Shown here one piece after another: positions 7,903 to 14,806 of a DNA stretch of 64,000 bases. How positions within the stretch are numbered: position 1 is the first letter of the stretch; each line of letters starts with the position of its first letter. Made by a program: the position numbers and the translations under genes. The stretch covers positions 3,623,001 through 3,687,000 of the forward strand of contig NZ_CP045851.1 of NCBI RefSeq assembly GCF_009650215.1. Direction: 5' to 3'. The notes below the pieces were generated by a model that saw nothing but the letters and a program-made list of their open reading frames with translations, did no database searches and had not been told where the DNA came from. Source of the stretch: Actinomarinicola tropica (lineage in GTDB: Bacteria; Actinomycetota; Acidimicrobiia; Acidimicrobiales; SKKL01).

Positions 7903-9630
7903 GTGCGCGATCCGGACGACACCGGCGACGGCGGCACCGGCACGGGCTCCGCGCTGTTCCAGCAGCTCCGCCTGGCCCTCGACGCCGGTGGGCTCGGCAC
8001 GTGGCGATCCGACCTCCGCACCGGGCACATCTCCTGGGACGAGCGGCTCGAACGCATCTTCGGGCTCGACCCCGGCACGTTCGACGGCACGACCGACATG
8101 TGGATGGAGCGGGTGCACCCCGACGACCGCTCCCGGATCCTGCTCGAGCTCGGTGACGACGCCCCGCACCCGGGGCCGTTCACCGTGCGCCACCGCGTCG
8201 TGTGGCCCGACGGCACCGAGCGCTGGATCGAGGGCTGGGTCCAGGCCGTCGTCGAGGACGACGAGGTCGTCGGGACGATCGGCTGCGCGCGCGACGTCAC
8301 CCGGGACGTCGTCGCCGAGGCCGCGCAGCGGGCGCAGGTGGCCTACCTGGAGCGGGTGGCCGATGCCGAGCGGCTCAACCGCGAGCGACTCGAGTTCCTG
8401 CTGCAGATCAACGACGCGCTCTCCCACGCCTCGACGGTGCAGGAGGTCATGCGACGGGTCACCCGCGCCGCCGTCCCCCGCCTCGGCGACTGGTGCTTCA
8501 TCCACGTCCTCCCCTACGAGGGGGCGACGACGGCGCTCATCGACGCCGCCCACAGCGACCCCGAGATGGTCGAGTCGGCCGCGCGCCTCGCCGACCGCAT
8601 GGCCTACGACCTCGACGCCACGTGGGGCGCGAGCGCGGTGATCCGGGTCGGGCGCCCGGAGTTCTTCCCCCAGCTCGACGTCACCCGGATCAAGGGGATC
8701 AGCGACAACGCCCGGCGGATCCTCATGAGCATGGGCCTCCGCAGCTCGATCGTCGTGCCGATCAAGCTGGGTGACCGCACCTACGGGGCGATCACCTTCC
8801 TCATGACGTTCGGCAGCCGCCCCTACAGCGAGCAGGACCTCATGCTCGCCGAGTCGGTCGCCGGACGTGTCGCCCTGGCCCTCGAGAACCTCGACCTCGT
8901 CGCCCGCCAGGTCGAGATCGCCCAGGTGCTCCAGGAGAGCCTGCTGCCCGGACGGCTCCCGACGATCCCGCACGTCGAGCTGGCGGTCCGGTACACGCCC
9001 GGCGGTGAGGGCACGGAGGTCGGCGGCGACTTCTACGACGTCTTCGAGCTCGACGACGAGCGCGCGTGGGGGATCGCCGTCGGTGACGTCTGCGGCCAGG
9101 GCCCGCTCGCCGCCGCGCTCACCGGGCTGGCCCGCCACACGATCCGCTCGGCGGCGTGGCGGGATGACGACCCGGGCACCGTCCTCGAGCGGCTCAACGA
9201 GGCCGTCTTCCGGTCCGAGACCGACTCGTTCTGCACGGCCGTGTACGGCGTGCTCGACGCCGTGGACCGTCGGCTGCGCCTGGCGCTCGGCGGACACCCG
9301 CTCCCCATCCTCGTACGACCCGACGGCTCGGCCGAGCAGGTCGGCAGCCCGGGGCTGCTCATCGGGGCGTTCGAGGAGGCGCGCACCTCACGGTTCGACG
9401 TCGACCTGCCCTCCGGCTCGTTCCTCGTGCTCTACACCGACGGGGTCACCGACGTGCCGCCGCCGCACGAGCTGAGCCCCGAGCGCTGGGCCGAGATCGT
9501 CGGGACGAGCGCCCGGAGCGCACGGTCGGCCGACCACCTCGCCGACCTGCTCGTCGACGCCCTCGATGCGCTGCGCCCGGCCCGGGCCCTGCGCGACGAC
9601 GTCGCGCTCCTGGTGCTGCGCTCGGTGTGA
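7903..9630 (+). CDS. PAS-GAF-PP2C phosphatase (RsbU/SpoIIE-like)
   Basis: A 575-aa sensor phosphatase. A PAS fold lies near residues 20-140 (LGTWRSDLRTGHISWDERLERIFGL type). A GAF domain lies near residues 165-330. A PP2C-type SpoIIE catalytic domain fills residues ~345-575, with metal-binding motifs GGDFYDVFEL, GDVCGQGPLAAAL and LYTDGVTDVPP. Proteins of this design dephosphorylate anti-sigma-factor antagonists (RsbV/SpoIIAA) in partner-switching pathways. GTG at 7903 follows GGGGAGG. No antagonist gene is adjacent. The window does hold an RsbW-like ATPase gene at 44186-44581, a possible distant partner. Confidence 0.9.
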   Translation: MRDPDDTGDGGTGTGSALFQQLRLALDAGGLGTWRSDLRTGHISWDERLERIFGLDPGTFDGTTDMWMERVHPDDRSRILLELGDDAPHPGPFTVRHRVVWPDGTERWIEGWVQAVVEDDEVVGTIGCARDVTRDVVAEAAQRAQVAYLERVADAERLNRERLEFLLQINDALSHASTVQEVMRRVTRAAVPRLGDWCFIHVLPYEGATTALIDAAHSDPEMVESAARLADRMAYDLDATWGASAVIRVGRPEFFPQLDVTRIKGISDNARRILMSMGLRSSIVVPIKLGDRTYGAITFLMTFGSRPYSEQDLMLAESVAGRVALALENLDLVARQVEIAQVLQESLLPGRLPTIPHVELAVRYTPGGEGTEVGGDFYDVFELDDERAWGIAVGDVCGQGPLAAALTGLARHTIRSAAWRDDDPGTVLERLNEAVFRSETDSFCTAVYGVLDAVDRRLRLALGGHPLPILVRPDGSAEQVGSPGLLIGAFEEARTSRFDVDLPSGSFLVLYTDGVTDVPPPHELSPERWAEIVGTSARSARSADHLADLLVDALDALRPARALRDDVALLVLRSV

Positions 9631-9633
9631 GCG

Positions 9634-11145
9634 TCAGCCGACGAGCAGATCCTGGACGGTCTGGCCGCCGGGGCCGTCGAGGGTGAGCCGGTAGCGGTAG
9701 GGGCCGATCGCACCAGCGGGCACGCACGCCGACTCACGTCCGCTGACGGGCCGCGGCCCGGCGGTGAGGCCGGCACCCGACAGCGACGCCGTGTCGGCAC
9801 CGTCGGTTGCCCAGATGAGGTCGACGGTCTCGCCGGCACAGGTGGAGTCGGGGACGACCCGCCCCGAGAAGCGGATGATCGTCGGCGGTGGCGGTGCGGG
9901 CTCCGTCGGATCGGTGGTCCCGGGCGGCGGCGCCGGCGGTGCCTCTGGTGCCGACGGCGGAACGGACGGTGGCGCGGGCTCCGTCGGCTGAGGCGACGGT
10001 GGGGCGATGGTCGAGGCCGTCGTGGGCGGCGCGGCGGTCGTCGACGTCGTCGCCTCGGTGGTCGGCGCCTCGTCGGTGGTGGTGGAGGACGACGGGACCG
10101 TCGTGGCGAGGGCCTGCTCGCCGTCGAGCGCCACCTGGTCGGTGCCGTCGCCCACGGCGTCGGCGATCGCGACCAGCGCCCCCACGACGACGACGGCGGC
10201 GATGATCGCCATCAGCACCCGCGTGCGCGCCTGGTGGGGTGGGCGCCCGCCGTCGGTCGGAGGCTCGGCGTCGGCGTCGGGCGCGCCGTCGTCGCCCGAC
10301 CCGGCCGAGGCGGACCCGTCCATCGGCACGCCGGAGCCGGCGAGGGCCGCGGCCACGTCCGCCTTCAGGAGCGGACCGGCGACGGCGAGCGGGACCGCTG
10401 CGAACATCGCGGTCGGCGAGAGCCGCAGGTCCTGGCGCTCCTCGCAGTCGACGCAGGCACCAGCGTGGCGATCGATCGCCTTGGCGGCCGCAGGACCGAA
10501 CGTGTCGATCCCCTGGGCCGCCAGCACGCCACGCAGCTCCGGGCACGCCGGGGCGCCGCCGCTCCACAGGACCCACGCCCGGATGGCGGCGCCGAGGCGC
10601 GCCTTCAGGCGGAACAGCACCTGGTGGGCGTTGTTGGTGGTGACGCCGAGCGCCTCGGCGATCTCGGCCGGGCCGAGGTCGTGGCGCAGGTGCAGGTCGA
10701 GGACGCTGGCGTCGCGCTCGCCGAGCGCCGCCGAGGCCGCCCACACCAGGTCGATGTCCTCGGCCCGGGCCGCCGCGACGGACGCGTCGGCGTCGCCACC
10801 GCTGCGGTCGATCACCGCGACCGTCTCCTCGTCGCCGAGGGCGACGGATCGCCGCTCCCGCTCGAGCCGGTTGAGCGATCGGTTGCGCGACGTGCGCAGC
10901 AGCCAGCCTCCGAACGACTCCGGCCGTTCGAGCCGGGCCAGCTGCTGCCAGGCCACGAGGAACACGTCCTGGCTGACCTCCGCGGCCAGCTCGCGGTCGT
11001 GGAGGATGCGGTGCGACACGTCGAAGACACGATCGAACCAGCGGTCGAACAGGACGCCGAAGGCGTCCGGGTCCCCGTCCCTCGCCGCGAGGACGAGGTG
11101 GACGTCGTCGAGGCCACGCGTCGCCATCGCTGCACAGTCGATCAC
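9634..11145 (-). CDS. ECF sigma factor fused to ZAS-like motif, membrane segment and extracellular domain
   Basis: A 503-aa single polypeptide. Residues ~15-95 are sigma region 2 (DPDAFGVLFDRWFDRVFD, AAEVSQDVFLVAWQQL). Residues ~150-205 are region 4 (LGPAEIAEALGVTTNNAHQV). Near residue 227 lies HAGACVDC, an HxxxCxxC of the kind found in zinc-binding anti-sigma factors. One membrane segment follows near residues 310-331 (MAIIAAVVVVGALVAI). Outside come a Ser/Thr/Pro-rich linker of about 90 residues and a C-terminal domain (residues ~425-503) with two Cys that looks Ig-like. The GTG at 11145 overlaps the stop of the L,D-transpeptidase gene (GTGA); ATG 11127 is an alternative start. It probably couples an outside signal directly to transcription. 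Confidence 0.85.
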   Translation of the reverse strand: MIDCAAMATRGLDDVHLVLAARDGDPDAFGVLFDRWFDRVFDVSHRILHDRELAAEVSQDVFLVAWQQLARLERPESFGGWLLRTSRNRSLNRLERERRSVALGDEETVAVIDRSGGDADASVAAARAEDIDLVWAASAALGERDASVLDLHLRHDLGPAEIAEALGVTTNNAHQVLFRLKARLGAAIRAWVLWSGGAPACPELRGVLAAQGIDTFGPAAAKAIDRHAGACVDCEERQDLRLSPTAMFAAVPLAVAGPLLKADVAAALAGSGVPMDGSASAGSGDDGAPDADAEPPTDGGRPPHQARTRVLMAIIAAVVVVGALVAIADAVGDGTDQVALDGEQALATTVPSSSTTTDEAPTTEATTSTTAAPPTTASTIAPPSPQPTEPAPPSVPPSAPEAPPAPPPGTTDPTEPAPPPPTIIRFSGRVVPDSTCAGETVDLIWATDGADTASLSGAGLTAGPRPVSGRESACVPAGAIGPYRYRLTLDGPGGQTVQDLLVG

Positions 11146-11936
11146 AGGATGGTGACCGGCGTCCCCAGCGGGAGCAGGTCGTTGAGGGTGGCCGCGACGT
11201 CGTTGGGCACCCGCACGCAGCCGTGGGAGACCGCCTGGCCGATGCTCGACGGGTCGTTCGTCCCGTGGATGCCGATCTGGCCGTCGCCGCCGGCGAACTC
11301 GGTGATGACGTCGGAGTGGCCGGACAGGCCGAAGGCGAACGGCCCGTAGGGGCCGTCGGCGGCGCCGGTGTCGAGCTTGTCGACGACCGAGAACCGGCCG
11401 GTGGGCGTCGGCGACTCGTCGCTGCCGACCGCGATCGGCGTCTCGAGGACGACCACGCCGGCGTCGAGGACGGTGAGGGTCCGCGCCGTCAGATCGACGA
11501 CGACCTCGTGGTCGACCGTGTGGAGGTCCATCCCGTCGAGTCGGATCCAGCCCGTCGAGCCGTTGGGCCGCGTCGGGAGGAGGACCTCGAGCCAGCCGTC
11601 GACGGCGGACTCCACGAGCAGGGCCCGGGCCGAGCCGAACTCGGTGGTCGCGGGCAACGTCTGGACGGGCGTGGCGTCACCAGGGGCGGCGAACACCTCG
11701 ACGGCCGCAGCGGTGCGGGCGACGACGACCGGGGAGGCCGGGCTCTCGCCGTCGTCGGCGACGGCGGCAGCGCTCGGCGTGGCATCCGGAGCGATCGACG
11801 TCGTCGACGCGTCCGGCGAGGTGGGGGCGCTCGTCGACGCGGCGGTCGACGACCCGGCGGGCCCGCCGCACGCCCCCGCCACGACGGTGACGGAGGCGAG
11901 CAGCAGGGCGAGCAGGTGGGTGCGGGTGCGGGACAT
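11142..11936 (-). CDS. L,D-transpeptidase (YkuD domain) lipoprotein
   Basis: A 264-aa cell-wall enzyme that forms 3-3 cross-links in peptidoglycan or attaches proteins to it. It has a lipoprotein signal (TVVAGAC, Cys near residue 22). A Thr/Ser/Ala-rich linker and an SH3-like region near residues 90-130 follow. The C-terminal YkuD domain carries the catalytic motif HGTNDPSSIGQ, then SHGCVRVPN with the nucleophilic Cys. I took ATG 11936 because it starts the signal peptide; the frame is open to 12065. It lies 19 bp after a small secreted protein gene and overlaps the membrane-tethered sigma factor gene by 4 bp, suggesting a wall-stress operon. Confidence 0.88.
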   Translation of the reverse strand: MSRTRTHLLALLLASVTVVAGACGGPAGSSTAASTSAPTSPDASTTSIAPDATPSAAAVADDGESPASPVVVARTAAAVEVFAAPGDATPVQTLPATTEFGSARALLVESAVDGWLEVLLPTRPNGSTGWIRLDGMDLHTVDHEVVVDLTARTLTVLDAGVVVLETPIAVGSDESPTPTGRFSVVDKLDTGAADGPYGPFAFGLSGHSDVITEFAGGDGQIGIHGTNDPSSIGQAVSHGCVRVPNDVAATLNDLLPLGTPVTIL

Positions 11937-11955: not shown

Positions 11956-12342
11956 TCAGCCCGTGAAGTCCGGGCGGCCCGAGACGGTGTCGCCCCGGGG
12001 ATCGACCTCGGCCTGGCCGCCGCCACCGCCCTGGTCGCCGGGCTCGCCGGGATCGCCGGGCTCACCCGGATCGGGGCAGCCGATGCCGAGCAGCTGGCAG
12101 GGGTCCTCGGGCTGGGTCGGGTTGACGAAGTCGTCGGCCGCGCCGGCGCCGGGGAACGGGTGCGGATCCGGGTCGCCCGGATCGGTCGGCGGGAGGGTGA
12201 AGCCGCCGGGACCGTCGGGGGCGGGCGGGGTCAGGGCGTGGGCGGAGGTGGCGGGGACGAGCGTCCCGAGGACGAGGCCGGCGGCCACGAGGGCGGCACG
12301 GCGGCGGGAGTTGGAGGGGCGGGTGGTGGTCGTGCGGCGCAT
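11956..12342 (-). CDS. Small secreted Pro/Gly-rich protein
   Basis: A 128-aa protein with a basic start and a Sec signal peptide (RRRAALVAAGLVLGTLVPATSAHA, cleavage probably after AHA). The mature chain is Pro/Gly/Asp-rich, contains one short Cys pair (PCQLLGIGC) and ends with a low-complexity PGEPGDPGEPGDQ run. I recognise no family. It is the first gene of a likely three-gene unit with the L,D-transpeptidase and the membrane sigma factor, which suggests an envelope role. Confidence 0.65.
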   Translation of the reverse strand: MRRTTTTRPSNSRRRAALVAAGLVLGTLVPATSAHALTPPAPDGPGGFTLPPTDPGDPDPHPFPGAGAADDFVNPTQPEDPCQLLGIGCPDPGEPGDPGEPGDQGGGGGQAEVDPRGDTVSGRPDFTG

Positions 12343-12435
12343 TCGGTCAGCTCCTTGGTCGGTCGCCGGGGTTCCGGCGTCTCGACCGTCCTGACCGACG
12401 GGCGCACGATCTCTTACACGTCCTCCGGAGAAATC

Positions 12436-13739: not shown

Positions 13740-14414
13740 ATGCCGATCCGCGTCGTGCTCGCCGACGACCACGCCCTCCTGCGTCAGGGGATCGAGCGGC
13801 TCCTCGCCGCCGACCCCGACGTGGAGGTCGTCGCCGTCGCGGCCTCCCTCGACGAGGCACGGGGCGCCGTACGCCGCGAGCAGCCCGACGTGGTCGTCAC
13901 CGACATCCGCATGCCGCCCACCTCCACCGACGAGGGCATCCGCCTGGCCGCCGAGCTGCGCGCCGAGCGCCCCGACTGCGGCGTCGTCGTCCTGTCCCAG
14001 TACGTCGAGGCCGCCTACGCGCTGGCCCTGCTGGCCGACGGCGCCGCCGGCCGGTCCTACCTGCTGAAGGAGCGGGTCGCCGACGCCGAGGAGCTGCTCA
14101 CCGCCGTGCGGGCGGTCGCGTCGGGCGGCAGCCACATCGACCCGCAGGTCGTCGAGCACCTGGTGGCCTCCAACCGCGCCGCGTCGTCCTCCGCCCTCGA
14201 CCGGCTCACGCCTCGCGAGACCGAGGTGCTCGGCGAGATGGCCCGCGGCAAGTCCAACGCCGCCATCGCCGCCTCGCTCGTCCTCTCCGAGCGCGCGGTC
14301 GAGAAGCACACCAACTCGATCTTCTCGAAGCTCGGGCTGTCCGAGGAGCGCGAGCTCAACCGGCGGGTCGCCGCCGTGCTCGCCTACCTCCACGACCACC
14401 GGGTCGACCGATGA
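13740..14414 (+). CDS. NarL/LuxR-type response regulator
   Basis: A 224-aa regulator. The receiver domain (residues 1-120) has acidic residues ADDH near residue 10, phospho-acceptor Asp in VVVTDIRMPP near residue 55, and a conserved Lys region (YLLKERV). The C-terminal LuxR helix-turn-helix (residues ~158-215) reads LTPRETEVLGEMARGKS, then AIAASLVLSERAVEKHTNSI. It overlaps the next gene by 4 bp (ATGA). No histidine kinase is adjacent; the nearest HisKA_3 kinase is at 19186-20565 and lacks its own regulator, so the two could be a split pair. Closely similar in design to the regulator at 28509-29162. Confidence 0.9.
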   Translation: MPIRVVLADDHALLRQGIERLLAADPDVEVVAVAASLDEARGAVRREQPDVVVTDIRMPPTSTDEGIRLAAELRAERPDCGVVVLSQYVEAAYALALLADGAAGRSYLLKERVADAEELLTAVRAVASGGSHIDPQVVEHLVASNRAASSSALDRLTPRETEVLGEMARGKSNAAIAASLVLSERAVEKHTNSIFSKLGLSEERELNRRVAAVLAYLHDHRVDR

Positions 14415-14806
14415 GCGGGGGTGGGGCGGCCGTCGTCCGCACGATCATCGTCGACGACCAGGAGCCCTTCCTCGCCGCCGCCGGCGCCGTCGTCGACCGC
14501 ACGCCGGGGTTCGAGGTCGTGGGACGGGCGACCGACGGCCACGCCGCCCTCGCCCTCGTCGACGAGCTCTCCCCCGACCTGGTCGTGATGGACGTGCGGA
14601 TGCCCGGGCTCGACGGCATCGGTGCGGCGCAGGAGATGGCTCGGCGGCCGCACGCCCCGATCGTCATCCTCGTCTCGAGCCACGCCCGAGCCGACCTGCC
14701 CGCCGAGCTCGAGCGGACGGGCGCCACCTACCTCCACAAGGAGGAGCTGCTCCCCGCCCGCCTGACCGAGGTCTGGGAGCGGCACGGTCGTACGCTCGGC
14801 GCATGA
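14411..14806 (+). CDS. Stand-alone receiver-domain protein
   Basis: A 131-aa protein made only of a CheY-like receiver fold: acidic pair VDDQ near residue 15, phospho-acceptor Asp in LVVMDVRMPG near residue 59, Ser/Thr switch region (VILVSSHA), and a Lys at LHKEE near residue 115. There is no output domain. It overlaps the preceding LuxR-type regulator and the following VOC gene, each by ATGA, so all three are translated together. It may act as a phosphate sink or protein-interaction switch in the same pathway. Confidence 0.88.
   Translation: MSGGGAAVVRTIIVDDQEPFLAAAGAVVDRTPGFEVVGRATDGHAALALVDELSPDLVVMDVRMPGLDGIGAAQEMARRPHAPIVILVSSHARADLPAELERTGATYLHKEELLPARLTEVWERHGRTLGA

Follow-up and report, generated by a model that had tools for sequence, protein, structure and literature searches.

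A membrane-tethered ECF sigma factor with a built-in anti-sigma-like domain in Actinomarinicola tropica, its predicted promoter, and its operon with an L,D-transpeptidase and a PxFTG-tailed secreted protein

The gene under study lies in a 64,000-nucleotide stretch of Actinomarinicola tropica contig NZ_CP045851.1 (positions 3,623,001 to 3,687,000; hereafter the window), and its product is probably a tethered, self-inhibited ECF sigma factor that senses the wall surface and controls its own operon, which also encodes an L,D-transpeptidase (LDT) and a tagged secreted protein. In this protein, a zinc anti-sigma-like domain (ASD) would keep sigma regions 2 and 4 inactive on the cytoplasmic side of the membrane; a signal at the outside domain (Ig-like here and PASTA in a relative) would set the sigma part free, through regulated proteolysis or else by a shape change, as proposed for ECF52; and the freed sigma, if active, would read the promoter GTAAG-N17-GTCAGG and drive its own three-gene operon, a step for which promoter and gene order are drawn from conservation. 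Its job would be upkeep of the cell-wall surface, with a wall crosslinking/attachment enzyme and a tagged protein supplied when that surface changes. The gene and the parts of its product were as follows (window coordinates; residues numbered from the ATG at 11127):

9634..11145, minus strand: fused ECF sigma factor gene (sigma, zinc anti-sigma-like domain, transmembrane helix and outside Ig-like domain)
10846..11121, minus strand: sigma region 2 (Pfam PF04542, E=1e-9, above cut-off; model residues 3-94)
10564..10785, minus strand: sigma region 4 (PF08281, 21.2 bits, sub-threshold with a cut-off of 25.7; model residues 115-188; region-4 structure matches)
10336..10545, minus strand: zinc anti-sigma-like domain, ASD (ligands C195, H221, C225 and C228)
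10156..10233, minus strand: transmembrane helix (hydropathy; model helix 299-324)
9640..9882, minus strand: outside Ig-like beta-sandwich (model residues 416-496; the G073 orthologue has PASTA instead)

The gene had two start options, GTG at 11145 (503 aa), which overlaps the stop of the LDT gene, and ATG at 11127 (497 aa). Frame 9634-11145 was accepted as coding because of its GC content by codon position (0.76/0.58/0.92) and because homologues of the protein kept the same order of parts. This domain order was sought in other genomes, as the sequence-only reading had suggested, and single-chain homologues were found in 33 of the 148 genomes of the order (matches at E <= 1e-20 with sigma plus ASD as query, the window's own genome included); 14 of 59 sampled relatives had a match at E <= 1e-15. 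The ten orthologues comprised the window genome (G000), a close clade with 50-64% identity and E <= 1e-74 (G063, G133, G127, G143, G003, G073, G008, and G096), and G148 (its locus being L023), which had 43% identity and was counted with the close clade; a wider group of fused sigma homologues stood at 27-37% identity. Matches from Nocardia and Pseudomonas carried no zinc motif, belonged to other kinds of sigma factor, and were set aside.

It is scarcely credible that the fusion is an artefact in which separate sigma and anti-sigma genes were merged by a sequencing error. Most inspected homologues were single chains with a natural stop at the end, a two-gene split among homologues was looked for and none was seen, and the artefact was rejected on these single-chain homologues; the in-frame stop in the sigma2-sigma4 linker of one homologue (L023) would speak for a merger, but it sits elsewhere than the fusion joint. 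In that orthologue (L023:4561-6100, JAJRQY010000029.1), the stop is a TAA between regions 2 and 4, full homology resumes after it, and it may represent an assembly error, a pseudogene, or recoding.

The sigma part scored 60.4 bits against TIGR02937 (cut-off 42.9), its regions 2 and 4 were joined by a short linker only, as is characteristic of ECF sigma factors, and the nearest structures in the fold search were sigmaE, SigW, AlgU, and SigK, the Foldseek/VIA rows covering mainly this sigma part. The motif HAGACVDC at residues 227-234 (503-aa frame) belonged to the ASD pattern C-x25-H-x3-C-x2-C, which has the ligand set of ZAS domains (H-x3-C-x2-C plus an upstream Cys/His). A hydrophobic segment followed at residues 310-328 (mean hydropathy 3.08), and on sequence inspection the helix was flanked by basic residues on its N-terminal side and by acidic ones on its C-terminal side, which fits an N-inside topology; a Thr/Pro-rich linker separated the helix from the outside domain. 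In the AlphaFold model, sigma2, sigma4, a helical zinc domain (residues 196-264), and the C-terminal beta sandwich were modelled confidently (pLDDT mostly about 85-96), the helix at the hydrophobic segment was of low confidence, the linkers were disordered, and pTM was 0.40 with unreliable relative placing of the domains. The one-chain layout first read from the letters (sigma regions 2 and 4, zinc motif, membrane segment, linker, and Ig-like domain) was borne out by profiles, hydropathy, this model, and homologues.

The ASD profile (80-residue region) was compared with 177,635 PDB sequences, and its top matches were RsiW (E 0.0035) and ChrR (0.08); the four ligands were invariant in 17/17 aligned homologues. 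Pfam zf-HC2 matched only two of the 17 ASD members (best 0.0014), with no match to the ASD of the window protein itself. The proposal of a tethered sigma factor with a built-in anti-sigma-like domain was supported by this profile match, the invariant ligands, and the homologues. Alternatively, the zinc domain might not be inhibitory, the membrane part merely localising the sigma factor and control lying in its synthesis (autoregulation) or in another partner. Such an arrangement would agree with the conserved autoregulatory promoter (see below), and conserved ligands by themselves do not prove inhibition; however, both RsiW and ChrR are inhibitors, the zinc ligands vary in none of the aligned homologues, and IutY and SCO4117 offer precedents (PMC8999054). 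A non-inhibitory zinc domain is accordingly judged quite improbable, and self-inhibition is retained as the preferred reading.

The outside domain was Ig-like in most homologues, but PASTA took its place in the G073 orthologue (3.4e-11) and, in two copies, in the G036 homologue (1.5e-17), and the outside part of the G009 homologue gave a sub-threshold HYDIN-like Ig match. Since outside domains differ among homologues, the cytoplasmic switch is constant and the sensor exchangeable. Ig-like domains of this sort are common, and the presence of one does not prove wall binding. Within the wider fused-sigma group (L031, L079, L030, and L035), the outside regions varied: PASTA, a weakly matched HYDIN-like Ig domain, and, in G042, a long region that was judged by eye to be propeller-like.

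Upstream of the sigma gene, the following features were recognized:

12390..12417, minus strand: predicted target promoter GTAAG-N17-GTCAGG (conserved at all ten orthologue loci, with a mismatch at one of them)
11956..12342, minus strand: small secreted Pro-rich protein of 128 aa, first gene of the operon, ending exactly GRPDFTG (PxFTG tail)
11142..11936, minus strand: YkuD L,D-transpeptidase lipoprotein (PF03734, 2.5e-22; lipobox VAGAC, beta domain, and YkuD domain)

The operon of the window genome thus read, from the promoter, PxFTG secreted protein, LDT lipoprotein, and sigma factor, and the coupling of an L,D-transpeptidase gene and a secreted protein gene to the sigma gene, claimed in the sequence-only reading, proved to be real. 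For the LDT, 11936 was a more plausible start than 12065, its catalytic motif was intact (HGTN...SHGCVR), the motif HGTN...S-x-GC[VI]R was present in 8/8 LDTs compared, and B. subtilis YkuD was the best fold match. This was the only YkuD gene found in the window genome. An LDT gene lay directly upstream of the sigma gene in six of the ten orthologues (G000, G063, G133, G143, G073, and G148), and in each of these six genomes the linked LDT was the one that matched the window LDT best; the sigma loci of G127, G096, and G008 were without a linked LDT, and the G003 genome had no LDT at all, from which it follows that the sensor can do without one. Two further loci were observed nearby: (i) a PAS-GAF-SpoIIE phosphatase (RsbU-like) gene at window 7903-9630, plus strand, which converges on the sigma gene with three bases between the ends; and (ii) two response regulators in overlapping frames at window 13740-14806, plus strand, one with a LuxR-type HTH and one with a receiver only.

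The ten orthologue loci displayed the promoter motif in different settings: (i) 5' of the operon in G000, G063, G143, G073, G148, and G127; (ii) directly before the sigma gene in G003; (iii) on the sigma side in G096; (iv) as N18 copies facing both divergent genes in G008; and (v) twice, each with one mismatch, in G133. No further exact match was present on either strand of the 868 kb of sequence searched, and genome-wide counts of exact sites were 0-3 per orthologue genome. A backward-motif control gave 10 hits in total over the ten orthologue genomes, so isolated extra sites need care and some of them may be due to chance; for the sites at all ten orthologue loci, chance is a very unlikely explanation. 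A promoter of this kind before the factor's own operon or gene is typical of ECF sigma factors that autoregulate, as this one probably does. The window genome had two exact sites, one at the sigma operon; in G003 and G096, too, the extra sites preceded genes of predicted exported proteins. The second G000 copy (L158, G000:C1:2347776-2347803) lay 52 bases before the gene of a secreted protein of 178 aa that looked Calx-beta-like by eye, and the second G096 copy (L165, G096:C27:3150) preceded a lipoprotein whose C-terminal domain resembles, by eye, the Ig-like domain of the sigma protein.

The protein might also be an ordinary ECF52/ECF53-type sensor of an outside carbohydrate or protein, with the LDT and the tagged protein as operon bystanders; ECF52/53 share its layout and have carbohydrate-binding or hydrolase outside domains (PMC5826349, PMC10766802), and 4/10 orthologue loci are without an LDT. 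This explanation is considered unlikely: in six genomes from several families the conserved promoter headed both the LDT and the tagged gene, the linked LDT matched that of the window best in these six and was the only one in the window genome, PASTA was found in one orthologue, and the window sigma protein had no carbohydrate-binding Pfam match. Wall-surface sensing is thus still preferred; the peptidoglycan sensing proposed at the outset gained indirect support, namely from the LDT linkage (6/10), from the PASTA domain of one orthologue, and from the tagged secreted proteins that the operon encodes.

At 9/10 orthologue loci, the adjacent secreted protein ended exactly in P-x-F-T-G, and at the G096 locus the tail was borne by a quite different protein. 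A coded PxFTG-stop occurred once in the window genome, at the sigma operon. The highest counts of PxFTG sites among the 148 genomes of the order were 20 in G127, 14 in G008, 10 each in G055 and G100, and 9 in G096, with 0-1 in the backward controls of the high-count genomes; all 20 sites of G127 fell on predicted secreted proteins. Many secreted proteins with Thr/Pro-rich linkers bore the tail in G127, G008, G096, G055, G100, and G133 (loci L113-L147 and L190-L192). Over 64 long frames, a few of which are possibly not real proteins, the residues preceding PxFTG were mostly small or hydrophobic, the linker was about one-third Thr plus Pro, and Lys was nearly absent (62/64 had none among the last 10 residues). 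In the stretches examined, no copy of the conserved promoter preceded the other tagged genes of G127 and G008, and the tag regulon is therefore wider than that of the sigma factor. NCBIfam models gave no match to four PxFTG proteins (three of them as joined ends, without middles), and no paper in the literature searched mentioned the tail. Of all the findings, the PxFTG tail has the best chance of being new to a specialist.

A PxFTG stop lay within 1 kb of a relative of the window LDT at 11 loci against 0.19 expected, some of these loci being related by descent, with a Poisson value that is not to be taken literally. Five of the 11 were the sigma operon; the others were tandem in G143:C11, G056, and G128 and convergent in G008, G017, and G049. 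Among inspected genomes, real tagged proteins were present in 21/27 with an LDT match versus 1/17 without (p about 5e-6), these counts being approximate because tagged proteins were judged by hand. An LDT is not sufficient for the tag: G005, G006, G007, and G044 had LDTs and zero tag sites. One plausible tagged protein without an LDT match was found in G057, whose genome is 86% complete; G085 (four tag sites and no LDT) was dismissed as a counterexample, all four sites being short chance frames without a signal peptide. Sortase (PF04203) gave no match in G056 and G128, which are 95-96% complete and have both tail and LDT, and these PxFTG proteins without PF04203 argue strongly, though not finally, against sortase as the necessary tag enzyme.

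It is possible, as a tentative proposal, that PxFTG is a new C-terminal sorting tag of the order on which the linked LDT acts in a sortase-like manner, with Gly leaving. In that case, the L-Thr-Gly end would imitate the L-centre-D-Ala/Gly donor bond of a stem peptide, the protein would become linked via Thr to peptidoglycan once Gly is lost, and the tethered sigma would monitor the state of the wall surface and tune enzyme and substrate jointly. Because the tail is without Lys, chemistry with the protein as donor is put forward as an idea for the case that the LDT does act on it. The tail was found on dozens of secreted proteins linked to LDTs, and if it does direct wall attachment, a protein-anchoring route would be added beside the sortase and Lpp-type ones.

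Known protein-anchoring LDTs (LdtA/B/C with Lpp, and OutB in Dickeya) likewise combine a YkuD enzyme with a protein carrying a short C-terminal box, and the acceptor they use is either an N-terminal amine or a C-terminal Lys (PMC12274547, PMC12729407). The known boxes end in Lys, which provides the acceptor amine, whereas the window PxFTG protein has no C-terminal Lys and only 2/64 tails contain one within their last 10 residues. LPXTG sortase substrates share with PxFTG proteins a signal peptide, a Thr/Pro-rich linker, and a short C-terminal motif with T-G; however, LPXTG needs a transmembrane segment and a basic tail after the motif, while PxFTG is the exact C-terminus and neither follows it.

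The fusion itself had been taken as unusual, a view that found no support: ECF48/52/53 share the layout (PMC8999054, PMC5826349). The idea of proteolytic release stands as a proposal and is not new, having been made for ECF52 (PMC5826349) and for ECF48/52/53 together (PMC8999054). IutY of Pseudomonas putida (ECF243) is the tested case of sigma/anti-sigma fusion proteolysis (PMC8999054); it is likewise a single chain under regulated proteolysis, being cut by Prc and RseP, but serves iron-starvation surface signalling via an outer membrane receptor. ECF48 and ECF53, compared here by layout, are actinobacterial sigma factors fused to a zinc anti-sigma-like domain with 1-2 transmembrane helices, an extension that the window protein also has. 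ECF52 (SCO4117 of Streptomyces coelicolor) likewise combines sigma, zinc finger, transmembrane segment, Pro-rich stretch, and outside domain in one chain, with release by proteolysis and positive autoregulation both proposed, and truncation of SCO4117 supports release by processing (PMC8999054, PMC5826349). The window protein had the C-terminal zinc domain, transmembrane segment, and Pro-rich extension of ECF52 but not its carbohydrate-binding outside domain, that of the clade here being Ig-like or PASTA; the motif proposed for SCO4117 is CSGYN-17-SRHA versus GTAAG-N17-GTCAGG here; and an operon with an LDT and a PxFTG protein was found in no description of SCO4117/ECF52 in the literature searched. 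The fusion architecture is therefore known in Actinobacteria and is not new alone; what sets this clade apart are its outside domains, its predicted promoter, and its LDT/PxFTG operon, the last two being new. A sigma/anti-sigma fusion thereby gains a predicted promoter and a target operon, so that a simple reporter would allow its signal and its mechanism of release to be tested.
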